From positions 865,501 to 929,500 of the forward strand of contig NZ_NKFP01000001.1 in NCBI RefSeq assembly GCF_002215035.1: a stretch of 64,000 nucleotides of DNA, in the 5' to 3' direction. Source of the DNA: Leptolyngbya ohadii IS1 (GTDB lineage Bacteria > Cyanobacteriota > Cyanobacteriia > Elainellales > Elainellaceae). Positions 33,866 to 60,051 of this stretch are shown in pieces. Positions within the stretch are counted from its first letter, which is position 1. The number at the start of each line of letters is the position of its first letter. Made by a program: the position numbers and the translations under genes. The notes below the pieces were generated by a model, which did no database searches, was not told the origin of the DNA, and worked only from the letters and a program-made list of their open reading frames with translations.

Positions 33866-33994
33866 TCGGCTAATTTAACCTTTGCTCTGAAGATTCGACC
33901 CGTTCAACGCATTCTAAAAGCTGCAAAAGGCATAGTTTCCTGCTTCTAGCGACCCATATTCCTACCCATATTCCTAATTGAGGAGATTCATTTC

Positions 33995-35830: not shown

Positions 35831-35946
35831 ATGCAACAAACCACTCCACTGCAAATTCTACCCTCAATAACCCAGGAGAGATCTGGTGTCACGTAACACG
35901 CTTTATATCCTCGTGTCGCGTCTCACGTTCTACCTCGTTAATCTCC

Positions 35947-36200: not shown

Positions 36201-36242
36201 TGGATTGAATTCACTCAAGCTTCTAATCCCTCTTCAGTCACT

Positions 36243-36525: not shown

Positions 36526-36558
36526 TGTCGCGTACGGCGATAAGTGACCGTGATCCGC
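36526..36558 (+). repeat. Outer transposon terminus, split from the rest by an IS
   Basis: TGTCGCGT marks the terminus. The segment GATAAGTGACCGTG (36538-36551) matches the inner TnsB-type repeats TAAATGACCGCAG and TAATTGACCGCG. GATCCGC at 36552-36558 is the left copy of the 7-bp duplication made by the insertion sequence; the right copy is 39118-39124, so removing the IS joins this terminus to GTTTCTTTGACCGCGACC. Confidence 0.75.
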
Positions 36559-39117
36559 CCACGGGATGCGCAACGAGGTTGAGGGGAGAGGGGTAGAAAG
36601 GTTACCAGGAGCGGAATTGAGGGGTTAGTTGTTGAGAGAATAGCTCCTAAATCGAGAGAAGCAGGAGTCATGAGATGGGAAGGAGGAAAGGGAGAACGGG
36701 GGTTGCCGTCGAAGCGGGAAGGGAAAGTGTCCAGCGAATCCCCGCGTGGTTTGGTGAAGCGGTACTGTACGGACAATATTGGCTGGAAAGTGGGCTAGTG
36801 GGGTATTTGGAAGAAGAAGTGCGTGTCGTGCGGGGGCGGATGGGGCGGTATGAAGTGATGGACTTTGTGCTGCTGTTGAATGCGTATGCCATTAGTGGGG
36901 AACGGACGATCGCAGATTTCTATCGAGCGTTGGAGCCGGTGAAGGAAGTCTTGATGAGCCAGTGGGGGCGAGAGCGGTGTCCCTCGGCATCGAGTTTGAG
37001 TCGGTTTTTAGGGAGTGTGGGAGTTAGTGCGGTAGAAGCATTGCGAAGTCTGTTTGAGAGCGATTTGCAGCGGAACAGCGTGCGAGTGAAACAGGCAATT
37101 GGGATGTTTGACCGGGTGAGCGACCATTCTGTGGTGTTTGATATAGATGGGACGGTCTGTGCTGTGCGGCAGCGGTCGATTACGACGGATGCCAGGAACG
37201 ATCCGCCCGCCGTGCGACGGAGCGAAGGAGCGTGTGCGCCAGGGTACACGGGGCGGAAGCGGGGGGAAGTGATTCGGAATCGGACGACGGTCTGTGTTGC
37301 CCAAACGGGAGAATGGTTGGGAAGCTATGGGAGCGCTGGAAATGGAGCAGCCAAGCTGGAGCTAGAGCGGTGTTGTGGGGTGATTGTGCGGTATTTGGAG
37401 CAGCAGGGCTTAGTGGTTGGGCATGGGTTGGTGCGCCTGGATGGCCTGTACGGCACTGCGGCGTTGGTCAGTGTGGTGCAGGCAACGGGGCTGGGATACC
37501 TATTGCGGTGTCGAGACTATCACATTCTGAAGAGCGAAAAGGTGAAGCGGCGGCTGGAGGATGCGGATGCAACCCACTGGCAGCGGATTGAGAACAGTGC
37601 CAGCCAACTATTGGATCTAGGCTACATCGAGGAAGTTGGGCGAGGGTACCCGGCACCAATGCGCGTGATTGTGGTGCGAACGCCGCATCAGGAGCATGGG
37701 GCAAAGATTGGGAAACGAGACAAGGATCAAGTGTATGAATTGTTTCTGACCTCGCAATCAGTGGCAAGTTTGAGTGGGATGGAAGTGTTGAGTTTGTATC
37801 GAGGGCGAGGCGGGTTTGAACAACGACTGAGTGAGGAGGATCAGGAACAAGATTACGACCGCTGGTGCAGTTGGAATGGGGCAGGGCAAGAGTTGTGGCA
37901 GATATTAGGGCAATGGAGTTGGAACTGGCGGTTGTGGATGGGCTGCCAGCAAGAGACAGTGGAGTTGCGGCAGACGGTGTGGGCAGAGTGCGAGGTTGAA
38001 TCAGAGACACAGCAGAGAAGTGAAGAGTCGAAGTGTGCAATTGCGGAGTTGCCCGCATCGTTAGCGGTTTTGCAAGGCGTAAAAGAACTTTCAGCGGTGA
38101 AATCAGGTTCTGAGGTGGCAAGTGGAGAGTTATACGGAGCGATGAGGATTTCCACAGAATGGGGGTCTGGATTGACAGGGAAGAACCGATTTGGCAATAG
38201 CGACTTTCAAATAGTCAATGACCAAACAGTATTGTGTCCTGCGGGACATCAGATGTATCGCCGCATGAGACATCAGAAACCGAATGGGGATATCAAGATG
38301 CAGTATGGGATCAATCCCAAGCATTGCCAGAAGTGTCCTGTCAAAAGGCGGTGTTTAGCACCTGGAAGCAAAGCAGATCGGGGTCGGGGTCGGCGAGTCA
38401 CAGTGATCCGTCCGCTGATCAGTGAGATAACAGCGGACCTGCCGCGAGTCGAGCTATCGAAAGATTCAGCAATTGTGCGGTCAGTAGTGCAGTGGGTGGG
38501 TGGGAAAGCCCAGCAAGCGGCGCAGCCTATTTTATGGTGTGACATAGCAGCAACTCGATTACGGCGCGGATGGCACGAGGAGTTGGCGTTATTTGAGGTC
38601 AAGATTGTGGAAAATTCTGCCCTGCATAAGACTGTTCCAAGTGAAGCAACGAAATTAACCAGCCGACGAGAACGAGAGCATCACCGTTTGAGTTGGTGGG
38701 AGAGGAACGAGCGGAATATGCGAAAAGGGGAGCAGGAGCGATGGAGAATCGTTTTGCCAGAAGTGGCAACAAAACTACTAAAAGGGTTAGAGCAATTGAG
38801 TAAACGTTCGTTCGTAGCAACAGGATAGCTTCAGATAATTGGGACTTGAATAGTAACTGCCATGCTATGAATTAAAGCAGTATAAGTAATTGAAGCGGGT
38901 ACTGCTAATTCAACATGATAAAGAACAAATTAGATAACAAGTTGATAACAGAAATAAGCAAATAAAGATAACGAAAAAGTGAAAATAGAAGCTATTGATA
39001 AATCATTAGGAATTTGAGCTGAAAACGGCAGGATCAGGGTGAAGCTTGTAGCGGCTCTAAGCCTTATATAGCAGGAGTTTGAAGCTTATAAGTGTCAATT
39101 CGTTGTGCATCTCGTGG
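36559..39117 (+). mobile_element. Insertion sequence, about 2.56 kb, inside the transposon end
   Basis: Terminal inverted repeats: CCACGGGATGCGCAACGAGG at the left and the reverse complement of CCACGAGATGCACAACGAAT at the right, 16 of 20 matching. Both sides are flanked by the same seven bases, GATCCGC (36552-36558 and 39118-39124). One large transposase gene fills it. About 290 bases between the transposase stop and the right end are AT-rich and non-coding. A relic of a related copy is at 35947. The mirror copy occupies 62928 to beyond the window end. Confidence 0.88.
36675..38828 (+). CDS. Large DDE-type transposase of the inserted IS
   Basis: A 717-residue transposase starting at ATG 36675, with AGGAG 7 bases upstream. 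The N-terminal third contains YAISGERTIADFYRALEP and CPSASSLSRFLGSV. Candidate catalytic Asp residues are in VVFDIDGTVCA and LVRLDGLYGTA, and a later YRGRGGFEQRLSE segment matches the YREK-like Glu region of IS4/IS1182-type DDE enzymes. Near residue 560 there is a zinc-like cluster (CPAGHQMY, then CQKCPVKRRCL) also typical of IS1182-like transposases. Family assignment beyond a large DDE transposase is uncertain. The gene is intact here; the mirror copy is cut by the window end. Confidence 0.85.
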   Translation: MGRRKGRTGVAVEAGRESVQRIPAWFGEAVLYGQYWLESGLVGYLEEEVRVVRGRMGRYEVMDFVLLLNAYAISGERTIADFYRALEPVKEVLMSQWGRERCPSASSLSRFLGSVGVSAVEALRSLFESDLQRNSVRVKQAIGMFDRVSDHSVVFDIDGTVCAVRQRSITTDARNDPPAVRRSEGACAPGYTGRKRGEVIRNRTTVCVAQTGEWLGSYGSAGNGAAKLELERCCGVIVRYLEQQGLVVGHGLVRLDGLYGTAALVSVVQATGLGYLLRCRDYHILKSEKVKRRLEDADATHWQRIENSASQLLDLGYIEEVGRGYPAPMRVIVVRTPHQEHGAKIGKRDKDQVYELFLTSQSVASLSGMEVLSLYRGRGGFEQRLSEEDQEQDYDRWCSWNGAGQELWQILGQWSWNWRLWMGCQQETVELRQTVWAECEVESETQQRSEESKCAIAELPASLAVLQGVKELSAVKSGSEVASGELYGAMRISTEWGSGLTGKNRFGNSDFQIVNDQTVLCPAGHQMYRRMRHQKPNGDIKMQYGINPKHCQKCPVKRRCLAPGSKADRGRGRRVTVIRPLISEITADLPRVELSKDSAIVRSVVQWVGGKAQQAAQPILWCDIAATRLRRGWHEELALFEVKIVENSALHKTVPSEATKLTSRREREHHRLSWWERNERNMRKGEQERWRIVLPEVATKLLKGLEQLSKRSFVATG

Positions 39118-39402
39118 GATCCGCGTTTCTTTGACCGCGACCGATCGAGCATAGAATGCTGACTGGGGGCGGATTTGAGCAATGTAACACGGTTTTTTTG
39201 GGTCGTACCGCGCTAAATGACCGCAGATTCAGGGGGTTTAAATTCCACGGTAATTGACCGCGCCTTTGGAAAATTGCTTAGGCTGTAACGGAATAGATCG
39301 AGATGTTGAGCGGGGTTGAGAATCTGGACCCAATGAAAACGTTCCACGGTAATTGACCGCGCTCCTTTTATAATCAGGTATTCTTTCGATGGAGGTTGCG
39401 CG
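39118..39402 (+). promoter_or_regulatory. Inner TnsB-binding repeats and tnsB promoter region
   Basis: Four repeats with the core TGACCGCG or TGACCGCA lie at 39132-39139, 39218-39225, 39255-39262 and 39354-39361. The last two are identical over 21 bases (39243-39263 and 39342-39362, containing CCACGGTAATTGACCGCG). TATAAT at 39369-39374, seven bases after the last repeat, is a good -10 element, and GGAGG at 39391-39395 is the tnsB ribosome site. Binding of TnsB here would cover its own promoter, so autorepression is expected. Confidence 0.78.
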
Positions 39403-41169
39403 ATGGACCCTGCAACCGAACTGATTTCAGTCTCGCCTGCTGCTCCTGGAATGCAGCTTGCTCTGAGGTTGCCCACCCCTGACACAGACGATTCGTGGTT
39501 GATCGTCGATGGCAGCAGCGAACTGCCGGATTATGTGCAACAGCGAATGCGTATAATTCAGCAGCTATTGGCAGCACGCGGGACGAAAACATATACGCAA
39601 GTGCAGCGACAAGCTGCCCGCAGCTTAGGGATGAGTGTGCGAAGTCTGCGACGACTGGTGAAAGCGTGGCAGGAATTAGGCGTTGCCGGGTTGTCACGAC
39701 AACCGCGATCAGACCAGGGCAGCATCAAAGCGAGCCAGGAGTGGCAGGACTTTATTGTGAAAACATATAAGGATGGGAATCGTGGGAGTCGGCAAATGAG
39801 TCCGGCCCAGGTTGCCGTTCAAGTACAGGCGCGTGCCCAAACGCTTGGGGTGGAGGACTACCCTGGACGCACAACCGTTTATCGCATTTTGCGTCCGTAT
39901 ATTGAGAAGGTTCAGCAAAAGCGATCGTTAGGGTGGCGACAGGATCGGTTGACGCTGCACACGCGGGAAGGATTAGCGATCGCGATCGAGTGGTCAAATC
40001 AAGTGTGGCAGGTGGATCACACCCGTGCAGATGTGCTAGTGGTGGATCAGTCTGGGGAAGTGCTAGGGCGACCGTGGCTAACGATTGTGGTGGATACCTA
40101 CTCACGCTGCATTATGGGCATTTATCTCGGCTTTGATGCACCCAGTTCTGCTGTGGTGTGTTTAGCCTTACGTCATGCCATTATGCCCAAGCAATACAGT
40201 TCAGCCTATGAATTGCAAGGGAACTGGGGGACGTATGGGCTACCGCAGTATTTGTATACCGATGGGGGCAAAGACTTTCGCTCGCAGCATCTAGAGCAGG
40301 TGGCAACGGAACTAGGAATTGTGCTGTGTCTGCGGCGCAAGCCCTCAGATGGCGGGATTGTGGAGCGACCATTTGGGACATTCAACACGCAGTTTTTCTC
40401 TACTCTTCCCGGCTACGTGAGCAGTAACGTGGAGACCCGATCGCCAGCGGCAGAATCGGAAGCTTGCCTCACCTTGATGCAGCTAGAGCAAATGCTGGTG
40501 CGCTACATCGTGGATCACTACAACCCGGCAGTCGATGCGCGAATGGGGGATCAAAGTCGGATAGGACGATGGGAAGCGGGACGGATTGCTCAACTGCCCC
40601 TGTTGGTCGATCGAGAGTTAGATTTGTGCTTGATGCGACGGGACCAGCGCAAAGTGTATCGCAGTGGCTATATTCAGTTTGCGAATCTAACGTATCAGGG
40701 TGAACATTTAGCGGCTTATGCGGGAGAAAGCGTGATTCTGCGATATGACCCCCGCGACATCACAACAGTCTTGGTCTACCAGGGGAAGGGGTCAAAAGAA
40801 GAGTTTCTCACTCGTGCCCATGCTCAAGGCTGGGAGACGGAAACCTTGTCGTATGCAGAAGCACAGGCAATTAGCGAGCGGAAACGCGAAGCAGGCAGAG
40901 CGATTAGCAATCGAACAATGCTAGAGGAAGTGCGGGATCGTGAGACTCGCATCAGGAAGCTCCAGAAGCAGCAGAAACAACAGGAGAACGTTTCTGTAAC
41001 CCCGGATGTTGCGGTAATTGATGTGTTGGCAGTTCAGGTGAATGCGACCGTAACCGAACCTATCGTTCAGCCAGAGCCAGAAGTTGAGGTCGAGAAGCCG
41101 AAGAAGCCCGTGCCGTATGTGCGGGTGGTGGACTATGAAGAGCTGAAACGAGGAGCAGGGTTGTTATGA
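39403..41169 (+). CDS. tnsB: TnsB-like DDE transposase
   Basis: A 588-residue transposase of the Mu/TniA/TnsB class. N-terminal helix-turn-helix domains (about 40-160) contain SLGMSVRSLRRLVKAW. The RNase H-fold core has catalytic D205 in VWQVDHTRAD, D287 in LYTDGGKDF and E321 in GIVERPFGTF. These are the same residue numbers I recall for the type V-K transposase ShTnsB, which is of nearly equal length. A Mu-C type beta-barrel and a C-terminal tail rich in Glu/Pro, likely to contact TnsC, follow. It cleaves and joins the transposon ends. Its stop overlaps tnsC in ATGA. Confidence 0.96.
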   Translation: MDPATELISVSPAAPGMQLALRLPTPDTDDSWLIVDGSSELPDYVQQRMRIIQQLLAARGTKTYTQVQRQAARSLGMSVRSLRRLVKAWQELGVAGLSRQPRSDQGSIKASQEWQDFIVKTYKDGNRGSRQMSPAQVAVQVQARAQTLGVEDYPGRTTVYRILRPYIEKVQQKRSLGWRQDRLTLHTREGLAIAIEWSNQVWQVDHTRADVLVVDQSGEVLGRPWLTIVVDTYSRCIMGIYLGFDAPSSAVVCLALRHAIMPKQYSSAYELQGNWGTYGLPQYLYTDGGKDFRSQHLEQVATELGIVLCLRRKPSDGGIVERPFGTFNTQFFSTLPGYVSSNVETRSPAAESEACLTLMQLEQMLVRYIVDHYNPAVDARMGDQSRIGRWEAGRIAQLPLLVDRELDLCLMRRDQRKVYRSGYIQFANLTYQGEHLAAYAGESVILRYDPRDITTVLVYQGKGSKEEFLTRAHAQGWETETLSYAEAQAISERKREAGRAISNRTMLEEVRDRETRIRKLQKQQKQQENVSVTPDVAVIDVLAVQVNATVTEPIVQPEPEVEVEKPKKPVPYVRVVDYEELKRGAGLL

Positions 41170-41993
41170 CATTAGAGGGTCGAGAACAGATTACGTTACC
41201 TGCCCGATTGATTGAGCCAGGAGCGCAAGAGTCGATCGCCCGACTTCAACGGCAATGCTTTGTGGAACTGGGGACGGTACAGCAGTTTCACGCCTGGTTA
41301 GATGACAAGCGGCAGTGTCGGCAGGCTTGTCGAGTGATTGGGGACTCCCGCACGGGAAAGACGATAGCCTGTGATGCATATCGGCTGAAATATGCGAGTC
41401 AAACTGCGAGTGGGGATGCGCCGATTGTGCCTGTGATCTACTGGCACGCGACGACGGAGACGGGGCAGCGGGAATTGTTCGTGGGGCTGCTGGAGCATTT
41501 GAAATATCGCATTACGAATGGCACAATTTCTGACTTACGCGAGCGAGTGTATCGCTTATTGCGATCGTGTCAGGTGGAGATGATCATTTTGGACGAAGCG
41601 CATCGGTTTCGCCCCAAAACCTTTTCGGAGATTCGGGACATCTTCGATTTGCTGGGGATTGCCGTGGTGCTGGTGGGAACGGATCGCCTCGATGTCGTAG
41701 TCCGACGGGATGAACAGGTGCATAACCGCTTCATGGCGTGTCACCGCTTTCATCGATTTGATAGCCAAGCTTTGGAGGATACGACAGCCATTTGGGAGGA
41801 ATATGTATTGCGACTGCCCCAGCCCTCCGATCTGACCAGTGCAACGATGCAGAAGATTCTGGCAGCGACCACACGCGGATACCTGGGCACCCTCGATGAG
41901 ATATTACGAAACGCGGCTCGACGTGCTTTAGAGAGCGGGCAATCTCGAATTGAAGCATCCTTGCTGAATCAAGTTGCGCTGGAGTACAAGTGA
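41166..41993 (+). CDS. tnsC: TnsC/TniB-like AAA+ regulator ATPase
   Basis: A 275-residue AAA+ protein. Walker A is GDSRTGKT (59-66, K65), Walker B is MIILDE (139-144), followed by the sensor-like VVLVGTDRL and an arginine-rich C-terminal helical part. In this family TnsC polymerises on target DNA and recruits the transposase. The size matches type V-K TnsC (about 276). It overlaps tnsB by four bases and is four bases upstream of the tniQ ATG, a single translational unit. Confidence 0.95.
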   Translation: MTLEGREQITLPARLIEPGAQESIARLQRQCFVELGTVQQFHAWLDDKRQCRQACRVIGDSRTGKTIACDAYRLKYASQTASGDAPIVPVIYWHATTETGQRELFVGLLEHLKYRITNGTISDLRERVYRLLRSCQVEMIILDEAHRFRPKTFSEIRDIFDLLGIAVVLVGTDRLDVVVRRDEQVHNRFMACHRFHRFDSQALEDTTAIWEEYVLRLPQPSDLTSATMQKILAATTRGYLGTLDEILRNAARRALESGQSRIEASLLNQVALEYK

Positions 41994-41997
41994 CCCA

Positions 41998-42546
41998 ATG
42001 CCTGACGAGAGCTGGGTATTTCGAGTTGTACCTGCGCCGGGAGAAAGCTTGGGACACTTCCTGGGGCGGTTTCGCCGTGCGAATCATTTGAGCCATCGCG
42101 CGATCGCGGATCATTTGGGCGTGCGTGTGAAGTGGGTTGAAGACTGGGAGCTGCCGTCGAAGCGACGAAACCCGACCGAGTTGCAACTGATCGCCCTGTC
42201 AAAATTAGTAGAGGTTGACCCCAAACAACTGGCAAAGATGCTGCCGCCTGCTCGCCTGCACCTACAAACCCGCCTGTGTTCAGCTTGCTATGCAAAAACT
42301 TCGGTACATTTAGCGGTGTGGCAGCGATCGGGGAGAACGGGGTGCGACCGTCATGCCCTGCGTCTCTTGTCAGTTTGTCCGGTTTGCAAGCATGGGTATC
42401 GCACCCCTGCCCTGTGGGAAGACGAACACTGTGAAGGGTGTGGGCTGGCATTTGGACAAATGCAGTCGTATCAGGAACCGATTCGCAAGCGTGGACAATC
42501 GACTCCATCAACCGCCTCGCCTGACGAGCTAGACGGTCGCCAGTAG
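41998..42546 (+). CDS. tniQ: TniQ-family target-selection protein
   Basis: A 182-residue TniQ protein. The ATG at 41998 is preferred over the TTG at 41974, which lies inside tnsC. The N-terminal part has the TniQ signature (FRVVPAPGESLGHFLGRFRR) and an HTH-like HRAIADHLGV. Two zinc-finger-like clusters follow: C94, C97, C116, H119 and C127, C130, C145, C148. In V-K elements TniQ links Cas12k to TnsC; with no Cas12k here, its partner for target choice is unknown. The last bases overlap the convergent small gene by 18. Confidence 0.92.
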   Translation: MPDESWVFRVVPAPGESLGHFLGRFRRANHLSHRAIADHLGVRVKWVEDWELPSKRRNPTELQLIALSKLVEVDPKQLAKMLPPARLHLQTRLCSACYAKTSVHLAVWQRSGRTGCDRHALRLLSVCPVCKHGYRTPALWEDEHCEGCGLAFGQMQSYQEPIRKRGQSTPSTASPDELDGRQ

Positions 42547-42894
42547 GAATTTGATCATCCAGTAAACTTCCCTGCCGCCAATCGGCTCATGGGCTTGCTG
42601 AAACTGGGATTTGAGCTGCTTGAGCAGATCGTCCTGCTCGATAATCTCGTCGGAGTAGTCCCACTTGCCGGGGGTGAGTCTGCGAGAAATGGTGGCACGA
42701 TCGGTTGCAATCTTTTCTAGCTGGAGTGCAGCACAGGCGGCGTAGAAGGTAGGTTGGAGCGCATCGACTTGCTGTTGGAGTTCCGTTAGTTGAGCGCGGA
42801 GGTCGAGCATCGCATTGATGATTTCGAGTGGATCGAGAAAGTCAGAGGCGGAGGAGTCGATCGTGGTAATTGGTGGCTGAACGTCTAGCTTCAT
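42529..42894 (-). CDS. Small coiled-coil hypothetical protein, first cargo gene
   Basis: A 121-residue protein convergent with tniQ and overlapping its end by 18 bases. The middle has heptad-like leucines (DLRAQLTELQQQVDALQ), followed by a helical stretch and an HEPIGGREVYW motif near the end. I do not recognise the family. It could be a plasmid- or element-specific DNA-binding or structural factor; there is no evidence for either. Confidence 0.6.
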   Translation of the reverse strand: MKLDVQPPITTIDSSASDFLDPLEIINAMLDLRAQLTELQQQVDALQPTFYAACAALQLEKIATDRATISRRLTPGKWDYSDEIIEQDDLLKQLKSQFQQAHEPIGGREVYWMIKFLLATV

Positions 42895-43381: not shown

Positions 43382-46300
43382 ATGATAGTGCAACCGCTCG
43401 TTCGTCCAGAGCAATCGCCTTCCTCGCGTCCAAGTTTAGAAACGGGGCGATCGATCGTCATCATCGACACCGCTCTTGCAGACTATCAAAGCCTCTTTGC
43501 GGGTGTCACGCCAAGCTATGAAGTGTATTTAGTCAATGCGAACCAGTGCGGCGTTGCTCAAATCACTGAGATGCTGCGCCAACAGAGCGGCATTGCCCAA
43601 CTGCATCTTCTATCGCATGGGAGCGCGGGGGAACTGCTCCTGGGCAAGAGCGTGCTGTCTTTGGAAACTTTGCCTGCTCATGCGGTTCAACTGCAAACCT
43701 GGCGCAGTGCCCTGAGTCAATCCGCCGAGATTCTCCTGTATGGCTGCGAAGTGGCGCAGGGGGATCGCGGACAACAGTTTGTGCAGCAGTTGAGTAAGTT
43801 GACCGGAGCGAGTATTGCTGCGGCTTCGACAAAAATTGGCAACTCCAGTTTAGGGGGAACCTGGACTCTGGATACGGTCATTGGCACTGTTACTGGTTCC
43901 TTGGCATCACAGCCAATCGCGATCGAGGCGTATGCGGGGATTTTGAGTTCTAACCCAGTGCAGTACAACCTGAACCCGTCAACCCAAAGCGCTTTCCCTC
44001 GTCACTTAATCAACGTGGATGGCACGCTCTACTTCACCGCCAGTCCAGACGGGGATGAATTTTCCTGGGAACGGGAACTGTGGAAGCTTGATCCGACTAC
44101 AGATCGTTTGGTCCGCATTGAACTTGAACCGGGAGTCTATAGTTTTTCTCCGACTCATTTCGCTCGTATTAATAGCACGGTGTACTTTGCTGCAACCAAC
44201 AGCACGAATGGACGGGAGATTTGGAAGATTGATCCTGCGATCGATGCTCCGGTGCGTCTTACCGATATTGAACCGGGGACAGGCAGTTCTTCTCCCACCA
44301 ATCTCACCAATGTCAACGGCACCCTGTACCTTGTCGCAACAAACAGTGCTACCGGACGAGAACTGTGGAAGCTTGATCCGACTACAGGAGCTTCAGAGCG
44401 ACTCACAGACATTGAACCGGGTGCAGGTAATTCTTCCCCCTCTGATCTCACTAACGTCAATGGCACCCTGTACTTTGTCGCGACGAACAGTGCGAGTGGA
44501 CGAGAACTGTGGAAGCTTGATCCAAGCTCAGGAACTCCCGTGCGGCTTACAGAAATTGAGCCAGGTGCAGCCAGTTCCGATCTCTTTAATCTCACCAATG
44601 TCAACGGAACACTTTATTTCATCGCAGTCGATCGCCGCAGCGAACGGCACTTGTGGAAGGTTGACCCTGTAACAGGCAGCCCAGTCCGAGTCGAATCTGC
44701 ATCGGGAGGAAGCATTGCCGGGGTTCGCAATCTCACTAACGTGAATGGCACGCTGTACTTTGTAGCCAGACAAGGCATTGGCGGCAACGAGCTGTGGAAG
44801 GTTGATCCGACGACAGGCGATCCGGTGCAGGTGGATTTTGAGCCAAGGGTATCTAGCTCCTCGCTTGAACATCTCACCAATGTCAACGGCACGCTCTACT
44901 TTTTCTCGATATCGAGTGCCTCTGGACAAGGACTCTGGAAAATCGATCCGGTCACAGGTAATCCTGCGCGAGTCGAACTTGCACCAGGGTCATTCATTTC
45001 TTCATCCCCCAGGATGACCAACGTGAACGGCACGCTGTACTTCAACGTCATCAGTGCCAACGGAAATGAACTGTGGCGGATTGATCCAGCGACCGGCAAT
45101 CCTATGCGAGTGAATGTTGAGCTGGGGGCAAACATTTTCTTGCCTCAGCCTCTCACCACCGTCAACGGGACACTCTACACGGTAGCGACAAATCGCGATA
45201 TTGGGCAGGAGCTGTGGCGGCTTGATTTAACCACGGGCAATCAATCGCTGATCGACATCAATACTCACGGTGTAGGCTCCTCTCCTGCCAATCTGATCAA
45301 CATTAACGGGACGCTATACTTTGCAGCAACGGATGCTGCTACTGGACGAGAGCTGTGGCGAATTGATCCGACGACTGGCAATCCCATTCGTATTACCGAT
45401 ATTGAACCAGGTCCAGCAGGTTCTTTCCCGGCAAACTTCGTCAACATCAACGGCACGCTCTACTTCAGTGCCAACCGCCTCGACCCCTCTAGTGGTGCTA
45501 ACAGACGGGAACTGTGGCGGGTTGATCCTGCTACCGGCAATCCCATCCGGGTTGAAGTGCATCCGGGAGTTGGCATCTCTCGTCCTAGAGTGAACCTTGG
45601 TTGGGAAGTCGATTTCTTCCTGCCTGAAAATTCCATCAACGTCAATGGCACACTGTACTTCCGGGCGAATAGCAGTGTTACAGGACAGGAACTGTGGCGG
45701 ATTAACGCGACGACCGGTAACGTGGAGCTGCTTGACATTGAACCCGGTGCAACGGGGTCTTCTCCCCACAGCTTCGTCAACGTCAACGGCACGCTCTATT
45801 TTATTGCCCGCAGCCGAGCGAACAGAGAAGAACTGTGGAAAATTAATCCTGCAACAGGCAATCCGGTATTAATCGAAATTGAACCAGGGACGGACAGTTC
45901 CTCTCCTAGCTCTTTCGGCAACATTAACGGTCTTATTGGCAACATTAACGGCACCTTGTACTTTGCTGCCTACAACAAAGCCAGCGAACTAGAATTGTGG
46001 AAGCTTGACCCAACCACAGACACCCCGGTACGACTTACCCGTATCGATCCAAGAGGAGACGGTTCCAGTTTTCACACCCTTATCAACGTCAACGGCACCG
46101 ACTACCTTAGTGTTTCTAACAACGCAGGAGGCAGAGAGCTGTGGAAGTTTGACTTGACGACCGGAAACGCGGCACGAATCGAAACTGCTTCAGGAGCCGT
46201 CCTTTCTTCTCCACAAGAAATAACGAATGTCAATGGCACTCTGTACCTCATTGCCAATCGAGGAGAACTGTGGAAGCTTGACCCGACGACTGGAAATCCA

Positions 46301-48226
46301 TCATTGATAGGGGCGACTGATGGCTACAATCTCACTAACGTTAACGGCACGCTCTACTTTGTTGTTAACGGTAATGAACTGTGGCGAGTTCATCCAACGA
46401 CAGGCAACCTGGAACGGCTTGAAATAGAAGCATTCGGAGGAACACCTTCGTTCTCCAATTTCACTAACGTTAACGGTACGCTCTACTTCAGTGCCTTCAA
46501 TCGTGCAAATGGCAATGAACTGTGGCGGGTTGACCCAACCACGGGTGATTTAGTCCGACTCGAAATCGAACTAGGAGTAGACGGTTCTTCTCCTCACAGT
46601 CTGACGAATGTCAACGGCACACTCTACTTTAGTGCCTACACTCGTGCGAATGGACGATCGCTGTGGCGCATTAATCCGAGTACGAACCAGCCAGAACGGG
46701 TGATTGACTTTAATCCAGGTGCGGATAATTCTGATCTTTTCGTCCTCGGCTTTGAAAACGGCAGGCTTTATCTCTCAGCGGGTAGTCGAACTGATGGTGC
46801 AGAGCTTTGGACGTTGGACCTGTCCAGGACGATCGACTCACTGAATGCTGCTCCAACTATCGTGGCTCCGATTGCAAACCAAATAGCAGCAGAAGATGCC
46901 GCATTTCGCTTCACTATTTCAACCAACAGCTTCGCAGACCCCGATCCGGGAGATCGTCTTACCTATACCGCAACGCTGGCAGATGGGCGAGTTCTTCCAG
47001 ACTGGCTGCGATTTGATGCTGTAACTCGAACCCTGAGCGGTACGGCATCGAATGAGAACGTGGGGACAATCAGTGTCAGGATAACCGCCACCGATCGAGC
47101 GGGTGATGCGGTCAGCAACACTTTCAACTTAACCGTTACCAATACCAACGATGCTCCTGTCCTAACAAAGGCAATTCCAGATCAGGTTGCCGCAGTGGAA
47201 ACATTGTTTAGCCTTACCCTGCCAAGCGATACTTTTAACGACACAGACGCGATCGATGCACTGACCCTGAGTGCTACGCTTGCAAATGGAAGTCCGCTTC
47301 CTGCGTGGCTTCGCTTTGACGCAGCCACACGTACTTTGAGTGGAACCCCTCCTCAGGGAAGTGCAGGGCGACTCAATCTCAGAATCATTGCTATAGATCA
47401 GGCGAGCGAATTGGTTAGCGATGAGTTTGAGCTTGTCATTACTGACAATCACTCCGATCGCAATGGCAGTACAAGCGGGTCTGAAGCTTCTGGCAATAAC
47501 GGGACCGGTAGCAATCCTGGCAGCGGTGGTAGTAATCCTGGCGGCAGTTCTGGTGGCATTCCTGGCACCGATTTCAATCGTCGTGATCAGGCTCAAGCCG
47601 ACCGCTCTCCCGTGCAGCCCCTGCCGCAAACCTTTGTCGGTACCCCGCAATCTGATCGGTTGGAAGGCAGTGAGGCAGCAGATATTTTGCTGGGTCAAGC
47701 GGGTAACGATATGCTGCTCGGTAACGGCGGTGACGATCACTTGGTCGGGGGTACAGGTAGAGATATTTTGAGCGGGGGGGCTGGTGCTGATCGCTTCGTC
47801 TACAACGTGGGAAGTCTGGCAAAGCAGCAGCGCAATTCTATCTTGCCTAACCTCGAACGCCTCATTGACTTGAATCCGACCGAGGGCGATAGGATTGTGC
47901 TTAATTTCGACGCAAACCCATCTTCGGTCGAGCAACCTCGCGGCTTGTTTAATGCTGGGCATCAGCGAGGTCGTCGATTAGAGAACGCCATTCAATCGGC
48001 TTTCCAGGACAAGAATCAACGGCAACGGGGCAAGCAAAAGCTTGAAGCAAACGAGGCAGTGTTCCTAACTTGGAAAAGGCGCACTTTTCTAGCTATCAAC
48101 GATAGTGTTCGTTCTCGAAATAGCGCAGGTGTCAATTTTTCACCTCACCGTGATTTGGTGATTGATGTTACGGGCATCTCTTCGATCGCGACTGGAACCC
48201 TTAACGTAGAAACTTACTTTGCCTAA
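43382..48226 (+). CDS. Giant DUF4347 / ELW-repeat / RTX surface or secreted protein
   Basis: A 1614-residue protein. Residues about 22-188 are a DUF4347 domain, with a His-Cys pair (H79 in LLSHGSAG, C122 in LLYGCEVAQG) that recalls the dyad of caspase/CHAT-like folds. Some 20 repeats of about 47 residues follow (about 190-1145), each built on VNGTLYF, GRELWKLDPTTG and IEPGXXSSSP. Next come two cadherin-like Ig modules (about 1145-1355, each with LPDWLRFD or LPAWLRFD), a Gly/Ser linker, and RTX calcium repeats (GNDMLLGNGGDDHLVGG, about 1425-1465). The RTX part predicts type I secretion. Known relatives are large exported cyanobacterial proteins; the function of this one is unknown, with adhesion or a protease-like role possible. 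Confidence 0.9.
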   Translation: MIVQPLVRPEQSPSSRPSLETGRSIVIIDTALADYQSLFAGVTPSYEVYLVNANQCGVAQITEMLRQQSGIAQLHLLSHGSAGELLLGKSVLSLETLPAHAVQLQTWRSALSQSAEILLYGCEVAQGDRGQQFVQQLSKLTGASIAAASTKIGNSSLGGTWTLDTVIGTVTGSLASQPIAIEAYAGILSSNPVQYNLNPSTQSAFPRHLINVDGTLYFTASPDGDEFSWERELWKLDPTTDRLVRIELEPGVYSFSPTHFARINSTVYFAATNSTNGREIWKIDPAIDAPVRLTDIEPGTGSSSPTNLTNVNGTLYLVATNSATGRELWKLDPTTGASERLTDIEPGAGNSSPSDLTNVNGTLYFVATNSASGRELWKLDPSSGTPVRLTEIEPGAASSDLFNLTNVNGTLYFIAVDRRSERHLWKVDPVTGSPVRVESASGGSIAGVRNLTNVNGTLYFVARQGIGGNELWKVDPTTGDPVQVDFEPRVSSSSLEHLTNVNGTLYFFSISSASGQGLWKIDPVTGNPARVELAPGSFISSSPRMTNVNGTLYFNVISANGNELWRIDPATGNPMRVNVELGANIFLPQPLTTVNGTLYTVATNRDIGQELWRLDLTTGNQSLIDINTHGVGSSPANLININGTLYFAATDAATGRELWRIDPTTGNPIRITDIEPGPAGSFPANFVNINGTLYFSANRLDPSSGANRRELWRVDPATGNPIRVEVHPGVGISRPRVNLGWEVDFFLPENSINVNGTLYFRANSSVTGQELWRINATTGNVELLDIEPGATGSSPHSFVNVNGTLYFIARSRANREELWKINPATGNPVLIEIEPGTDSSSPSSFGNINGLIGNINGTLYFAAYNKASELELWKLDPTTDTPVRLTRIDPRGDGSSFHTLINVNGTDYLSVSNNAGGRELWKFDLTTGNAARIETASGAVLSSPQEITNVNGTLYLIANRGELWKLDPTTGNPSLIGATDGYNLTNVNGTLYFVVNGNELWRVHPTTGNLERLEIEAFGGTPSFSNFTNVNGTLYFSAFNRANGNELWRVDPTTGDLVRLEIELGVDGSSPHSLTNVNGTLYFSAYTRANGRSLWRINPSTNQPERVIDFNPGADNSDLFVLGFENGRLYLSAGSRTDGAELWTLDLSRTIDSLNAAPTIVAPIANQIAAEDAAFRFTISTNSFADPDPGDRLTYTATLADGRVLPDWLRFDAVTRTLSGTASNENVGTISVRITATDRAGDAVSNTFNLTVTNTNDAPVLTKAIPDQVAAVETLFSLTLPSDTFNDTDAIDALTLSATLANGSPLPAWLRFDAATRTLSGTPPQGSAGRLNLRIIAIDQASELVSDEFELVITDNHSDRNGSTSGSEASGNNGTGSNPGSGGSNPGGSSGGIPGTDFNRRDQAQADRSPVQPLPQTFVGTPQSDRLEGSEAADILLGQAGNDMLLGNGGDDHLVGGTGRDILSGGAGADRFVYNVGSLAKQQRNSILPNLERLIDLNPTEGDRIVLNFDANPSSVEQPRGLFNAGHQRGRRLENAIQSAFQDKNQRQRGKQKLEANEAVFLTWKRRTFLAINDSVRSRNSAGVNFSPHRDLVIDVTGISSIATGTLNVETYFA

Positions 48227-48245
48227 TGTAGAGTTGTCAGCTATT

Positions 48246-50384
48246 TCAGTCCGTTTGATTCTCAAACTTTTGTACGATCGCCCGTAGTTCCTCGATCGCC
48301 TTCCCCTCAATGAACTGCTGATAAATGGGTTTAAGCTGTCCCCGGTCTTTATCTTTACCATTGCTTCTGGCATTGAGACCGATTGCGGCATTGTGCTGGT
48401 CGAGCTGTTCGACAGCGATCGGGTGACTCTGAAGCCAGGGCGTGACGACGAGGGCGGGGTTTGCCCCAGCAGCGGTGGCAATGACGTTCCCGGACAGATA
48501 CCAGCGATCGTGGGGAGGGCAGTTTTGGTTGTGGTGGATGAGGGCTGCGATCGCCAGCGGCACTCGGTCGGAGGGTGAAAGCTTCCCGAATGACGGTCTA
48601 CCCAGAGCGGGGCGGGGCGTTGGTGCTGGCTGTTGCACGGGTGGCTGATTGACGGGTGGCGGCTGAATTGGCGCGGGTTGGGGGACTGGCGTAAGTTGAA
48701 CTCCTGCCAGTCCTTGAGCGGCGGCGGCAATTTGAGCAAGGCGATCGTGCGCGGTCTGGAGTTCGGTGCGGAGGCGGTCGATTTCCTGCTGTTGTTGTTC
48801 GGTTTGCTGGCGTAACTGCTCCAGTTCTTCGGCTTGCTGACCGACAGATACCTGCTGTTTGATAGCCGCGAGTTCCTGTAACAGGGGAGCCAGGAGATGA
48901 TTGGGGTCAGGTATTGCCTGCTCAGTCGGAGCGGAGGGGACGGTTAGTAGCACCCGATCGAGCAGGGATTGATAGCCTGTTCTACCGGAGGAGTCAAGAC
49001 CGAGACGATCGGCAGCGGCAGACAGATCTACCAGATTTACCCGCAACTCCCGATAGCGGGGTTTGCTGCGCTTCGGCTTGCTGGGCTGGTGAGCAGCCGG
49101 TGCAGCTTCGGTCGGCTCTTGCGTCGTCGAGGATGGCAGAGATTCTTTTTCCGGTAAGGTTTGCAGGTCTATGGCAACTTCTTCAACTTCGTGCTGTGTG
49201 GGAGACATAACTGCTTCCTCTGGGCGGGTAAAGTCTAGTTCTGTGGTGTCCGAGTCCAAGCGGTCGTTCGCTGCCTGCTGCTGCTGCACCTGGCGATCGG
49301 AGAGACTGGGCAGCGGGTTCGCCATGAGCTTGATGCCCGTCACCGTGATCGGCTTACCCTGGTCGTTCACCAGGCAATAGCCGAAATAGTGGGAGGCGGA
49401 ATTGCTGTTAGCGGCATCGCGCATCTCCCCAGGGGTGACGTGCCCCAGATAGAACTGCAACCATCGCTGCTCATTCACCCCCTGCCCTGGCAGCCAGTAG
49501 TGAATCGCCACCCGTGCATAAGCCGCCCGAAGCCTGTGAACGCTGACACTCCCAAACCCTGGTAGCAGCGGCAGGATTTGGGAGTCCTGAAAATGATGTC
49601 TAACTCTGGTGTTGACCCTTGCCCGAAAAGCCGCCACTTCCCGGTCGGCACTGGTGAGTCCGGCTAGTGCTTGCACCTGGGGAAAGGCTCTAAAGCGATC
49701 GATCGCCTCCAGCACTGCTTGAGCCGGAAGTAGGGTGAGAATCGTGTACGCGATAGGATCAGCCTTTTTGAGTTGCCCGTCGAAGGTGAGCAGATAGGAA
49801 TGCCGGGTTGAGGAGAAGCGACCAGAGACGGCAACCTCCGTGTGCCGCCTGCCCGTCACAGCAGCGATGCCCACCGCCAATGTTTCCGGCTCCTGTGCTT
49901 GCAGTAGTTGCTCTGCCTTTCCCAAATAGCGATCGGGGTTGAAAGGCTGGGGGTTGTCCTGACGTTCGTTGTTGCCGATGTTGGTTTGTTTCCGGTTAGA
50001 GAGGTAAACGGAATTGTCATAGCGCATCAAGTCAAACGCGAGATGCTGAAGTGCCTGGATCGGCTTCCCCGTCCGTTTGCGCCCCTTGAACATAAAAGAG
50101 GTGGCATCGGTCATCGGTAGCTTGCCCGCCTCGGTTGCTTGGGCTATAGCCGTTCGGTACTTGCTCAAGTAGTTGACCGTGCTGTTTGTGCCCTTGCCGT
50201 AACCCAACTCCAGCAGTTCGATCTCATCCTGGCACAGTTGCTCTATTGCCTCAGCCGATAGGAGGGATTGCAGCCGATCGATAAAAGCTTGCACCAGGAA
50301 GTCCCGCTCCTGGGTGCTGAGTTTTTGCCTGTCCCCGCGCTGGAGGCGATCGTGATAGTTGCTAATAATCTCATCCCGATTCAT
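48246..50384 (-). CDS. Candidate telomere resolvase (protelomerase), tyrosine-recombinase fold
   Basis: A 712-residue protein reading away from the palindrome axis; its start codon is 638 bases from it. The tyrosine-recombinase set is visible: R180 in AVTGRRHTEV, K206/K207 in FDGQLKK, H283 and R286 in SVHRLRAAYA, H315 in FYLGHVTP and a nucleophile Tyr at Y333 (or Y336) in SASHYFGY. The TGRRxxEV plus xGQxK pairing is, as I recall, characteristic of the TelN/TelK/TelA protelomerase group (Telomere_res) rather than of phage integrases. The N-terminal 165 residues are helical. From about 500 there is a coiled coil (LEQLRQQTEQQQQEIDRLRT), then a Pro-rich linker and a separate C-terminal domain of about 110 residues. 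Such enzymes cut a palindrome and reseal each side as a hairpin. Confidence 0.8.
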   Translation of the reverse strand: MNRDEIISNYHDRLQRGDRQKLSTQERDFLVQAFIDRLQSLLSAEAIEQLCQDEIELLELGYGKGTNSTVNYLSKYRTAIAQATEAGKLPMTDATSFMFKGRKRTGKPIQALQHLAFDLMRYDNSVYLSNRKQTNIGNNERQDNPQPFNPDRYLGKAEQLLQAQEPETLAVGIAAVTGRRHTEVAVSGRFSSTRHSYLLTFDGQLKKADPIAYTILTLLPAQAVLEAIDRFRAFPQVQALAGLTSADREVAAFRARVNTRVRHHFQDSQILPLLPGFGSVSVHRLRAAYARVAIHYWLPGQGVNEQRWLQFYLGHVTPGEMRDAANSNSASHYFGYCLVNDQGKPITVTGIKLMANPLPSLSDRQVQQQQAANDRLDSDTTELDFTRPEEAVMSPTQHEVEEVAIDLQTLPEKESLPSSTTQEPTEAAPAAHQPSKPKRSKPRYRELRVNLVDLSAAADRLGLDSSGRTGYQSLLDRVLLTVPSAPTEQAIPDPNHLLAPLLQELAAIKQQVSVGQQAEELEQLRQQTEQQQQEIDRLRTELQTAHDRLAQIAAAAQGLAGVQLTPVPQPAPIQPPPVNQPPVQQPAPTPRPALGRPSFGKLSPSDRVPLAIAALIHHNQNCPPHDRWYLSGNVIATAAGANPALVVTPWLQSHPIAVEQLDQHNAAIGLNARSNGKDKDRGQLKPIYQQFIEGKAIEELRAIVQKFENQTD

Positions 50385-50396
50385 ATTGATGCTCTC

Positions 50397-50787: not shown

Positions 50788-51604
50788 GCATATAGGACAA
50801 AATCTCTTATGTGTATAATATAGGACGGCGATCGTTGTATATATCCACAAAACACTATAACGTTCACACAGTAATACTTTCAACAATTTCGCTGTCTGTT
50901 TGCCTGCATTTATACATATACAAACACAAGAAGCGATCGCCTTTTATACATAAGATATTTGTATATATAAGAATATGCTATATGCGATCTTGTGTATTAG
51001 TATACGTATATGTAATATAGAATTCTATATTACATATACGTATACTAATACACAAGATCGCATATAGCATATTCTTATATATACAAATATCTTATGTATA
51101 AAAGGCGATCGCTTCTTGTGTTTGTATATGTATAAATGCAGGCAAACAGACAGCGAAATTGTTGAAAGTATTACTGTGTGAACGTTATAGTGTTTTGTGG
51201 ATATATACAACGATCGCCGTCCTATATTATACACATAAGAGATTTTGTCCTATATGCGTATATGAATACAAACATCAAATCGAATTGCATATACAGAACA
51301 AGGGCGTATAAGCAATTTGTATCAGTGGTACAAGGATGAGAGCTTCGATAAGCACTGGGCTTTCTGCGGCGATCGCCTGTCGAGGCACTCTAGGTCGTAG
51401 CGTGAAACGATCGCCCCACGATATGCCGCAGGTGGGTCGGCTTAGGGCTGCGCTGTCGCTTGTTGCTGCACTATTGCACAGAGTAAGGGGCGATCGCCTC
51501 TTATGCTGCGGTGAAGCCGGATCGTCCTGCCCGTTCCACGATCGTCTCCAGCATGGAACGGTTTGGGCTGCGCCTCAGAAGGGAGCGATCGTCCGTTTAT
51601 CCTG

Positions 51605-51634
51605 TTGTGTATAAGTTGAGTATGCATATATAAT
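51605..51634 (+). promoter_or_regulatory. Likely resolvase promoter, mirror copy
   Basis: Mirror of 50411-50440: TTGTGT at 51605 and TATAAT at 51629-51634, with GTATATGAATAC at 51637-51648 before the ATG at 51661. Confidence 0.55.
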
Positions 51635-51660
51635 ATGTATATGAATACGAGAGCATCAAT

Positions 51661-53799
51661 ATGAATCGGGATGAGATTATTAGCAACTATCACGATCGCC
51701 TCCAGCGCGGGGACAGGCAAAAACTCAGCACCCAGGAGCGGGACTTCCTGGTGCAAGCTTTTATCGATCGGCTGCAATCCCTCCTATCGGCTGAGGCAAT
51801 AGAGCAACTGTGCCAGGATGAGATCGAACTGCTGGAGTTGGGTTACGGCAAGGGCACAAACAGCACGGTCAACTACTTGAGCAAGTACCGAACGGCTATA
51901 GCCCAAGCAACCGAGGCGGGCAAGCTACCGATGACCGATGCCACCTCTTTTATGTTCAAGGGGCGCAAACGGACGGGGAAGCCGATCCAGGCACTTCAGC
52001 ATCTCGCGTTTGACTTGATGCGCTATGACAATTCCGTTTACCTCTCTAACCGGAAACAAACCAACATCGGCAACAACGAACGTCAGGACAACCCCCAGCC
52101 TTTCAACCCCGATCGCTATTTGGGAAAGGCAGAGCAACTACTGCAAGCACAGGAGCCGGAAACATTGGCGGTGGGCATCGCTGCTGTGACGGGCAGGCGG
52201 CACACGGAGGTTGCCGTCTCTGGTCGCTTCTCCTCAACCCGGCATTCCTATCTGCTCACCTTCGACGGGCAACTCAAAAAGGCTGATCCTATCGCGTACA
52301 CGATTCTCACCCTACTTCCGGCTCAAGCAGTGCTGGAGGCGATCGATCGCTTTAGAGCCTTTCCCCAGGTGCAAGCACTAGCCGGACTCACCAGTGCCGA
52401 CCGGGAAGTGGCGGCTTTTCGGGCAAGGGTCAACACCAGAGTTAGACATCATTTTCAGGACTCCCAAATCCTGCCGCTGCTACCAGGGTTTGGGAGTGTC
52501 AGCGTTCACAGGCTTCGGGCGGCTTATGCACGGGTGGCGATTCACTACTGGCTGCCAGGGCAGGGGGTGAATGAGCAGCGATGGTTGCAGTTCTATCTGG
52601 GGCACGTCACCCCTGGGGAGATGCGCGATGCCGCTAACAGCAATTCCGCCTCCCACTATTTCGGCTATTGCCTGGTGAACGACCAGGGTAAGCCGATCAC
52701 GGTGACGGGCATCAAGCTCATGGCGAACCCGCTGCCCAGTCTCTCCGATCGCCAGGTGCAGCAGCAGCAGGCAGCGAACGACCGCTTGGACTCGGACACC
52801 ACAGAACTAGACTTTACCCGCCCAGAGGAAGCAGTTATGTCTCCCACACAGCACGAAGTTGAAGAAGTTGCCATAGACCTGCAAACCTTACCGGAAAAAG
52901 AATCTCTGCCATCCTCGACGACGCAAGAGCCGACCGAAGCTGCACCGGCTGCTCACCAGCCCAGCAAGCCGAAGCGCAGCAAACCCCGCTATCGGGAGTT
53001 GCGGGTAAATCTGGTAGATCTGTCTGCCGCTGCCGATCGTCTCGGTCTTGACTCCTCCGGTAGAACAGGCTATCAATCCCTGCTCGATCGGGTGCTACTA
53101 ACCGTCCCCTCCGCTCCGACTGAGCAGGCAATACCTGACCCCAATCATCTCCTGGCTCCCCTGTTACAGGAACTCGCGGCTATCAAACAGCAGGTATCTG
53201 TCGGTCAGCAAGCCGAAGAACTGGAGCAGTTACGCCAGCAAACCGAACAACAACAGCAGGAAATCGACCGCCTCCGCACCGAACTCCAGACCGCGCACGA
53301 TCGCCTTGCTCAAATTGCCGCCGCCGCTCAAGGACTGGCAGGAGTTCAACTTACGCCAGTCCCCCAACCCGCGCCAATTCAGCCGCCACCCGTCAATCAG
53401 CCACCCGTGCAACAGCCAGCACCAACGCCCCGCCCCGCTCTGGGTAGACCGTCATTCGGGAAGCTTTCACCCTCCGACCGAGTGCCGCTGGCGATCGCAG
53501 CCCTCATCCACCACAACCAAAACTGCCCTCCCCACGATCGCTGGTATCTGTCCGGGAACGTCATTGCCACCGCTGCTGGGGCAAACCCCGCCCTCGTCGT
53601 CACGCCCTGGCTTCAGAGTCACCCGATCGCTGTCGAACAGCTCGACCAGCACAATGCCGCAATCGGTCTCAATGCCAGAAGCAATGGTAAAGATAAAGAC
53701 CGGGGACAGCTTAAACCCATTTATCAGCAGTTCATTGAGGGGAAGGCGATCGAGGAACTACGGGCGATCGTACAAAAGTTTGAGAATCAAACGGACTGA
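51661..53799 (+). CDS. Candidate telomere resolvase, mirror copy
   Basis: Identical in translated sequence to the gene at 48246-50384, on the other strand. If the right arm is a read-through of a hairpin end, this is the same physical gene seen twice. If the palindrome is real DNA, the cell has two divergent copies facing away from the axis. Confidence 0.8.
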   Translation: MNRDEIISNYHDRLQRGDRQKLSTQERDFLVQAFIDRLQSLLSAEAIEQLCQDEIELLELGYGKGTNSTVNYLSKYRTAIAQATEAGKLPMTDATSFMFKGRKRTGKPIQALQHLAFDLMRYDNSVYLSNRKQTNIGNNERQDNPQPFNPDRYLGKAEQLLQAQEPETLAVGIAAVTGRRHTEVAVSGRFSSTRHSYLLTFDGQLKKADPIAYTILTLLPAQAVLEAIDRFRAFPQVQALAGLTSADREVAAFRARVNTRVRHHFQDSQILPLLPGFGSVSVHRLRAAYARVAIHYWLPGQGVNEQRWLQFYLGHVTPGEMRDAANSNSASHYFGYCLVNDQGKPITVTGIKLMANPLPSLSDRQVQQQQAANDRLDSDTTELDFTRPEEAVMSPTQHEVEEVAIDLQTLPEKESLPSSTTQEPTEAAPAAHQPSKPKRSKPRYRELRVNLVDLSAAADRLGLDSSGRTGYQSLLDRVLLTVPSAPTEQAIPDPNHLLAPLLQELAAIKQQVSVGQQAEELEQLRQQTEQQQQEIDRLRTELQTAHDRLAQIAAAAQGLAGVQLTPVPQPAPIQPPPVNQPPVQQPAPTPRPALGRPSFGKLSPSDRVPLAIAALIHHNQNCPPHDRWYLSGNVIATAAGANPALVVTPWLQSHPIAVEQLDQHNAAIGLNARSNGKDKDRGQLKPIYQQFIEGKAIEELRAIVQKFENQTD

Positions 53800-53818
53800 A
53801 ATAGCTGACAACTCTACA

Positions 53819-58663: not shown

Positions 58664-59150
58664 TGCCTGACTGAGTGAAGAAATGAACGACAGTCGCTAA
58701 AACGGTAGATTAGCGGCAGTGGAATCAATCGATGCAATCAAAGGGCTTCTAATAACAGCCAGATAATAACTTCGATTGGCATTTTCCTTCCTTAAATTAT
58801 GATTCCCCAACAACCTTCCTGATTTCCAGGACTTGTGAAATATTACTGAATATTTAAATAACAATAATTAGACCGTAATTCCACTTAAGAGAGAAATTAC
58901 CTAAAAGCAAACACCGTTCGATTAGGAAGCAACTCGACTGGTGGAGTGTAATCAGATCAAGGTGCAGCTTCACCGATCGCACATGAGCGCCTATTGACCA
59001 CCTGGCACAGATTCTAAGAACAAATCATTCTGCCACTGCTCCGGCTTCGTAGAGCTTGAAATTGAAGATAGGCAACTTTAACAGTTTCTTCCTCCACCCC
59101 CTGCCCCAATCGGCTCTACAGTAGCTTCACTCTCTTCACGTTGGTAAATT
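58664..59150. promoter_or_regulatory. Divergent promoter region, mirror copy
   Basis: Mirror of 42895-43381; no gene seen. Confidence 0.4.
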
Positions 59151-59516
59151 ATGAAGCTAGACGTTCAGCCACCAATTACCACGATCGACTCCTCCGCCTC
59201 TGACTTTCTCGATCCACTCGAAATCATCAATGCGATGCTCGACCTCCGCGCTCAACTAACGGAACTCCAACAGCAAGTCGATGCGCTCCAACCTACCTTC
59301 TACGCCGCCTGTGCTGCACTCCAGCTAGAAAAGATTGCAACCGATCGTGCCACCATTTCTCGCAGACTCACCCCCGGCAAGTGGGACTACTCCGACGAGA
59401 TTATCGAGCAGGACGATCTGCTCAAGCAGCTCAAATCCCAGTTTCAGCAAGCCCATGAGCCGATTGGCGGCAGGGAAGTTTACTGGATGATCAAATTCCT
59501 ACTGGCGACCGTCTAG
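59151..59516 (+). CDS. Small coiled-coil hypothetical protein, mirror copy
   Basis: Identical to the 121-residue protein at 42529-42894, convergent with the mirror tniQ. Confidence 0.6.
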   Translation: MKLDVQPPITTIDSSASDFLDPLEIINAMLDLRAQLTELQQQVDALQPTFYAACAALQLEKIATDRATISRRLTPGKWDYSDEIIEQDDLLKQLKSQFQQAHEPIGGREVYWMIKFLLATV

Positions 59517-60047
59517 CTCGTCAGGCGAGGCGGTTGATGGAGTCGATTGTCCACGCTTGCGAATCGGTTCCTGATACGACTGCATTTGTCCAAATGCCAG
59601 CCCACACCCTTCACAGTGTTCGTCTTCCCACAGGGCAGGGGTGCGATACCCATGCTTGCAAACCGGACAAACTGACAAGAGACGCAGGGCATGACGGTCG
59701 CACCCCGTTCTCCCCGATCGCTGCCACACCGCTAAATGTACCGAAGTTTTTGCATAGCAAGCTGAACACAGGCGGGTTTGTAGGTGCAGGCGAGCAGGCG
59801 GCAGCATCTTTGCCAGTTGTTTGGGGTCAACCTCTACTAATTTTGACAGGGCGATCAGTTGCAACTCGGTCGGGTTTCGTCGCTTCGACGGCAGCTCCCA
59901 GTCTTCAACCCACTTCACACGCACGCCCAAATGATCCGCGATCGCGCGATGGCTCAAATGATTCGCACGGCGAAACCGCCCCAGGAAGTGTCCCAAGCTT
60001 TCTCCCGGCGCAGGTACAACTCGAAATACCCAGCTCTCGTCAGGCAT
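59499..60047 (-). CDS. tniQ: TniQ-family protein, mirror copy
   Basis: Identical to the tniQ gene at 41998-42546, including both zinc-finger-like clusters. Confidence 0.92.
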   Translation of the reverse strand: MPDESWVFRVVPAPGESLGHFLGRFRRANHLSHRAIADHLGVRVKWVEDWELPSKRRNPTELQLIALSKLVEVDPKQLAKMLPPARLHLQTRLCSACYAKTSVHLAVWQRSGRTGCDRHALRLLSVCPVCKHGYRTPALWEDEHCEGCGLAFGQMQSYQEPIRKRGQSTPSTASPDELDGRQ

Positions 60048-60051
60048 TGGG

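Follow-up and report, generated by a model that had tools for sequence, protein, structure and literature searches.

The window, which is the whole stretch of 64,000 nucleotides analysed here (C1:865501-929500 of a 7.9-Mb host genome in 8 contigs), contains a tnsB-tnsC-tniQ set that probably belongs to a Tn7-like element which, though of V-K CAST descent, no longer has Cas12k and resides at hairpin telomeres. That the element is telomeric and comes from a Cas12k-losing line we regard as very probable. The detailed mechanism proposed below, in which two left termini (LE) would be joined, the telomere would serve as the second end and the telomere resolvase TelR would carry out the resolution, is tentative and falls somewhat short of an even chance. 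The features on which this reading is based are the following (window positions):

35914..35945, + strand: older left-terminus relic, TGTCGCGTCTCACG..., like that of the C7 element (see below), internal to the present LE; extent read from the sequence
36526..36557, + strand: left terminus (LE), TGTCGCGTACGGCGATAAGTGACCG...
36558..39118, + strand: IS1380-like insertion sequence inside the LE, with near-matching ends and a 5-bp duplication, ATCCG; within it, at 36675-38828, an IS1380-like transposase of 717 aa
39206..39362, + strand: repeated 20-21-bp motifs at 39206, 39243 and 39342, likely TnsB sites
39403..41169, + strand: tnsB, 588 aa, V-K lineage
41166..41993, + strand: tnsC, 275 aa, V-K lineage
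41974..42546, + strand: tniQ, short V-K type, 190 aa from TTG 41974 or 182 aa from ATG 41998
42529..42894, - strand: orf121, small, convergent with tniQ, kept across the telomeric clade
43382..48226, + strand: surface protein of 1,614 aa with ELWxxDGT repeats, DUF4347 and bluetail; subtelomeric cargo
48246..50384, - strand: telomere resolvase TelR, 712 aa (PF16684, 153 bits)
50983..51062: telomere, with the palindrome centre GAA/TTC between 51022 and 51023
51023..64000, - strand: the arm in mirror image (copy at the second chromosome end), running past the window to C1:930987

The three transposition proteins are all of the V-K lineage. In phmmer the proteins of ShCAST (Scytonema hofmannii, type V-K) are the top solved-structure matches (TnsB 607, TnsC 278 and TniQ 136 bits), the next-best TnsB structure is of type I-F3 at 118 bits, with I-F3/Tn7 TnsB at 118 bits or less, and the PADLOC V-K models agree with the assignment of all three. 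Scored against ShTnsB, the window TnsB reaches 607 bits, a TnsB of a deep Cas12k-linked lineage 470 and one of the main Cas12k clade 839. The genes are intact. An earlier sequence-only reading of this DNA gave sizes of 588 and 275 residues for TnsB and TnsC, which the reading frames bear out, and 182 for TniQ, which is correct from the ATG and becomes 190 if the TTG is used. The ATGA overlaps that it described exist for tnsB/tnsC but not for tnsC/tniQ, where the stop (41991-41993) and the ATG at 41998 are 4 nt apart. The TnsB catalytic residues D205, D287 and E321, which it had numbered, are the same in the window TnsB and in its paralogue on contig C7. As in ShCAST, TnsB, TnsC and the short TniQ stand in the same order, and no TnsA is seen adjoining the set.

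Unlike ShCAST, the window element is without Cas12k, CRISPR array or known RNA, and is telomeric, with orf121 and telR instead. Cas12k has no match anywhere on C1, no CRISPR-like direct repeats were found in 33000-51022, and Rfam, which may lack the relevant RNA, gave no match in 36000-51022. These searches uphold the earlier statement that nothing like Cas12k, CRISPR or a tracrRNA follows tniQ; together with the structure matches, PADLOC and the TnsB tree, they also support the assignment to a V-K lineage without Cas12k. Orf121 has no family match in Pfam, NCBIfam, PADLOC or PHROGs, and its predicted fold, modelled alone, is helical (pLDDT 62). In the window the 1,614-aa ELWxxDGT protein separates orf121 from telR; at the C7 end it is absent between them.

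From 38045 to 64000 the window is a single perfect palindrome centred on 51022/51023, which reads ...TATAGAA/TTCTATA..., with inverted repeat arms of 14,465 bp each, no spacer, and outer flanks that differ. Hence all the sequence past 51022 mirrors the first arm. This palindrome was overlooked by the sequence-only reading, which described a telomere resolvase and other cargo beyond tniQ. A PF16684 gene is indeed present, as the last large gene ahead of the palindrome centre, but it is not loose cargo: the resolvase and the telomere define the niche, and the transposition set lies 9.9 kb from the centre. Telomere resolvases have a catalytic domain that is tyrosine-recombinase-like. Judged from its sequence, TelR resembles TelA, ResT and TelK in having the PF16684 catalytic domain and a palindromic, target-like centre; against the NCBIfam TelA model it scores just 28.9 bits (cut-off 800). 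A resolvase catalytic domain and a perfect palindrome at the replicated junction are what a hairpin telomere is expected to show, and both are found here. We infer that the palindrome represents a hairpin telomere, where the assembly joined two chromosome ends that share a 14.5-kb terminal repeat.

The same centre is found on plasmids of other cyanobacteria. Both ends of the Gloeocapsa PCC 7428 plasmid pGLO7428.02, which was deposited as linear, read ...TATTGGAATTCCAATA..., a palindrome on the same GAATTC centre, and its terminal repeat of 1,340 bp is identical at both ends. The "circular" Gloeocapsopsis dulcis plasmid NZ_CP119970.1 has this centre at about position 211060, in a perfect palindrome with 1,738-bp arms. 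Since this palindrome is perfect and shares its telomere centre with a linear relative, the plasmid is probably linear and was misassembled as circular. The Gloeothece verrucosa PCC 7822 plasmid Cy782202, also deposited as linear, carries a protelomerase, an orf121-like gene, TniQ, TniB and TnsB, ordered as in the window; unlike in the window, 12-15 kb separate its set from the end of the record, and its TnsB is ~60% identical. In two drafts (G095:C54 and G018), a pair of inverted telR copies encloses a perfect palindrome whose centre differs. A TelR scan of genome contigs and three scans of viral contigs yielded no relatives.

Two other contigs of the same genome bear on how the unit spreads. 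C7 (292,274 bp) terminates in a diverged copy of the window arrangement (identity 62% for TnsB, 53% for TnsC, 53% for TniQ, 74% for orf121 and 79% for TelR), and the DNA homology reaches within ~50 bp of the window palindrome centre. The C7 element is 3,966 bp long, from its LE TGTCGCGTCTCACGCTTTTCGTCG at C7:285405 to a right end that finishes at 289370; its ends are near-matching (22/24 bp), and it lies beside telR and interrupts the tniQ belonging to an older set. From the first base of the LE TGTCGCG to inside telR, where C2 breaks off, C2:1-5436 matches C7 at 100% identity over 5,436 bp. The C2 and C7 flanks outside the LE are unlike, and the identical sequence also continues past the C7 right end. 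The unit from the LE telomere-ward therefore stands intact at two sites and, as the two replicon ends are identical from the LE into telR, appears to move together with its telomere. No 5-bp target duplication was found at the C2/C7 or window termini.

In the window only a left terminus was found of the two TGT..ACA ends and 5-bp duplication of V-K elements; a right end of the TGTCGCG type was not found in 41169-51022, from tnsB to the telomere. An LE at 39093 or 39183 was considered and rejected when the IS was recognised within the LE, which puts the true LE at 36526. The identity of the two palindrome arms ends exactly at the outer edge of this IS1380-like element, and on the opposite arm a C7-type LE (TGTCGCGTCTCACGATATTTGTCG, ending at C1:931019) abuts the same element. 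This is most simply explained if the two chromosome ends formerly carried separate elements and recombination through the IS overwrote one arm with the other. Roughly 1 kb outside the right-hand LE, an amidohydrolase-like gene (C1:931981-932904) looks N-terminally truncated, with 307 aa against open frames of at least 510 aa in relatives. The left-flank amidase and this right-flank gene are on one contig in none of the five other genomes with a match to each, and a comparison of the left and right flanks as those of a linearised circle found no duplication.

We surveyed a sample of 388 cyanobacterial genomes with a TnsB threshold of E 1e-60 or better. As TnsB was scored on the best three candidates per genome and Cas12k among the matches listed (88 of 90 genomes in the table), the counts are lower bounds. 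TnsB occurs in at least 87 genomes and at least 139 places, TelR in 95 genomes and Cas12k in 90. Of the 139 TnsB places, at least 16 have TelR no more than 40 kb away and at least 61 have Cas12k no more than 60 kb away, and among the matches listed not one place is near both (5e-5 by chance). The telomeric clade, whose membership in the TelR-presence, contig-end and LE counts was taken from the TnsB tree, is found in at least 19 genomes. TelR is present in 16 of these 19; for the remaining TnsB genomes the figure is 26 of 68, and for all genomes outside the clade 79 of 369. Of the 27 telomeric-clade copies, 26 have a downstream contig end no more than 15 kb away, against 3 of 41 Cas12k-linked copies (those of the 61 places with contig size known); on contigs of at least 50 kb the figures are 12 of 13 and 1 of 38, where it should be remembered that draft contig ends can be repeat breaks. 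In one exception, G115:C3, the set points away from its nearer contig end. The LE heptamer TGTCGCG was found within 450 bp upstream of tnsB at 13 of 24 telomeric loci, with three near-identical G302 copies counted separately, and at 1 of 52 others.

As far as the sequence goes, residence at the ends of linear replicons is thus seen for this clade. In genome G302 the set is located at the tips of a 498-kb contig with terminal inverted repeats of 6.88 kb (99.9%) and of a 5.46-Mb contig with terminal inverted repeats of 6.56 kb (99.98%). A chromosomal copy in the same genome has inverted tip-like sequence ahead of its LE, which we read as a putative fossil telomere. At G025, G288, G200 and G302 telR lies on the inward side of the set; with several loci of this kind, telR does not belong to every unit.

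The careful TnsB tree has 64 rows: sequences below 420 aa were excluded, and 14 of 78 rows, near-copies or else long or short, were removed. Its root consists of two distant rows only. Telomeric TnsBs form one clade of 22 rows (100/100). The TnsC tree repeats the telomeric clade (27 rows, 97, zero Cas12k-linked rows), and in the TniQ tree, with few Cas12k rows, the telomeric set is not a single group. The phylogeny suggested by the sequence-only reading thus places TnsB and TnsC in the V-K neighbourhood but does not unite the TniQ set. That reading had left two options, early branching or a CRISPR module lost or replaced, and the TnsB tree and AU test favour the latter. A primitive non-CRISPR relative that split off before the gain of Cas12k is unlikely in our view. 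It would fit a telomeric clade that holds no Cas12k-linked TnsB and whose sister is one large Cas12k clade (the main one, 24 rows, 96/94), and a late single gain is possible if the outer lineages gained Cas12k separately. Yet Cas12k linkage is also seen in the further-out branches (3, 4 and 9 rows), and the AU test rejects a tree in which all Cas12k-lineage rows are held together (p-AU 0.001). The deep split of the Cas12k tree roughly matches the TnsB lineages and sets the deep ones mostly apart from the main set, except for G347, which falls inside it. Because the telomeric clade is nested among Cas12k-linked lineages and the AU test gives 0.001, loss is favoured: most likely, judging from these trees, the CRISPR module was lost by an ancestor that carried it, and repeated gains of Cas12k from one source are possible. 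A set that uses a Cas12k encoded elsewhere in the genome is hardly credible. The proposed search of the host genome did find three Cas12k loci on C6 (2782959, 3433424 and 1468771-1471050), but nothing favours action in trans, as the locus with a full TnsB-TnsC-TniQ, at 2782959, is just 37% (TnsB) and 26% (TnsC) identical to the window, and the other two loci supplied five spacer-like segments, none with a convincing match to the telomeric sites; moreover, 12 of 19 telomeric-clade genomes have no Cas12k among the matches listed. The locus at C6:3433424 has a 3-repeat CRISPR array and no TnsB match within its 20 kb, and that at C6:1468771-1471050 has only a partial TnsB match.

A different explanation, quite possible though well short of probable, is that the element has two ends like any other Tn7-like transposon and simply favours subtelomeric sites close to telR, the shared telomere sequence having come about by homologous exchange from one end to another. 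The clean 3,966-bp C7 element with its 24-bp ends beside telR speaks for it, as does the position of TelR, convergent and 4.1-4.8 kb downstream at no fewer than six TnsB places, and homogenisation of terminal repeats can occur. As a right end is retained between orf121 and telR in the C7 element and in G099, a two-ended transposon is possible at these loci. On the other hand, the C2/C7 identity begins exactly at the LE between unlike flanks and continues past that right end, a matching duplication was not found, and neither the window nor most loci showed a TGTCGCG-type right end. It is very unlikely that we are looking at a disabled CAST relic at a genome end whose palindrome is an assembly fold-back. 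Some clade members are broken (e.g., G222 and G321) and an IS interrupts the window LE, but tnsB, tnsC and tniQ are intact there, the differing flanks past the arms exclude a pure fold-back, and the clade recurs in at least 19 of the 388 genomes.

For the telomeric element that we prefer, the arrangement itself suggests a mechanism. LE-tnsB-tnsC-tniQ-orf121 points telomere-ward and is followed by telR and the perfect palindrome; replicons that look linear carry related sets at each end, older copies occur in tandem or nested, and a right end is rarely found. After replication the ends would be joined telomere to telomere as a dimer, with an inverted pair of LEs flanking the element. TnsB may then connect this LE pair to a new site, in most cases subtelomeric, and the telomere would stand in for the right end. 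TelR would resolve the palindrome, by which the target gains a new telomere and the old tip is discarded, and would double as the cointegrate resolvase of a TnsA-less system. TniQ, perhaps with orf121, might pick the target in place of Cas12k, which is a guess. The full picture of a guide-less CAST that became a telomere, with one transposase end plus a hairpin, a palindromic dimer, TelR as resolvase and orf121/TniQ targeting, we consider doubtful; if true, such a unit can replace chromosome ends or linearise replicons.

Telomeric transposons as such are already published: judging by its title and its citation in PMC12669027, the study of Hsieh et al. (2025, Science 387:eadp1973) concerns transposons resident at the telomeres of linear bacterial genomes, and the window element likewise appears to stand at linear replicon ends. 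PMC12669027 also associates a CAST variety without TniQ with telomeric transposons, whereas the window element has TniQ and no CRISPR part. A search of open papers, outside which most subscription papers lay, found none describing this telomeric V-K clade. According to PMC11406308, TnsA-less Tn7-like elements usually carry a serine or tyrosine resolvase, none is known for V-K elements, and how TnsA-less V-K-type elements handle cointegrates in native hosts is an open question. TelR would fit this gap, and a telomere resolvase that could settle cointegrates in this V-K branch offers a testable answer. The clade also represents a likely evolutionary exit from RNA-guided transposition and suggests how linear cyanobacterial chromosomes may have come about.

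Orf121 provides a fourth gene that marks such ends in draft genomes. It occurs in 30 of the 388 genomes, mostly adjoining the telomeric TnsB clade, with exceptions that include G013, G033 and G047, where the surrounding 20 kb showed no TnsB set. A lone chromosomal homologue of this kind is a possible host source of the transposon gene. Homologues at a chromosomal site were seen in G033, G047 and G072 and also in G013 (L206 11774-12151), where the neighbours, named from their translations, look like ribosomal L25 and tilS.
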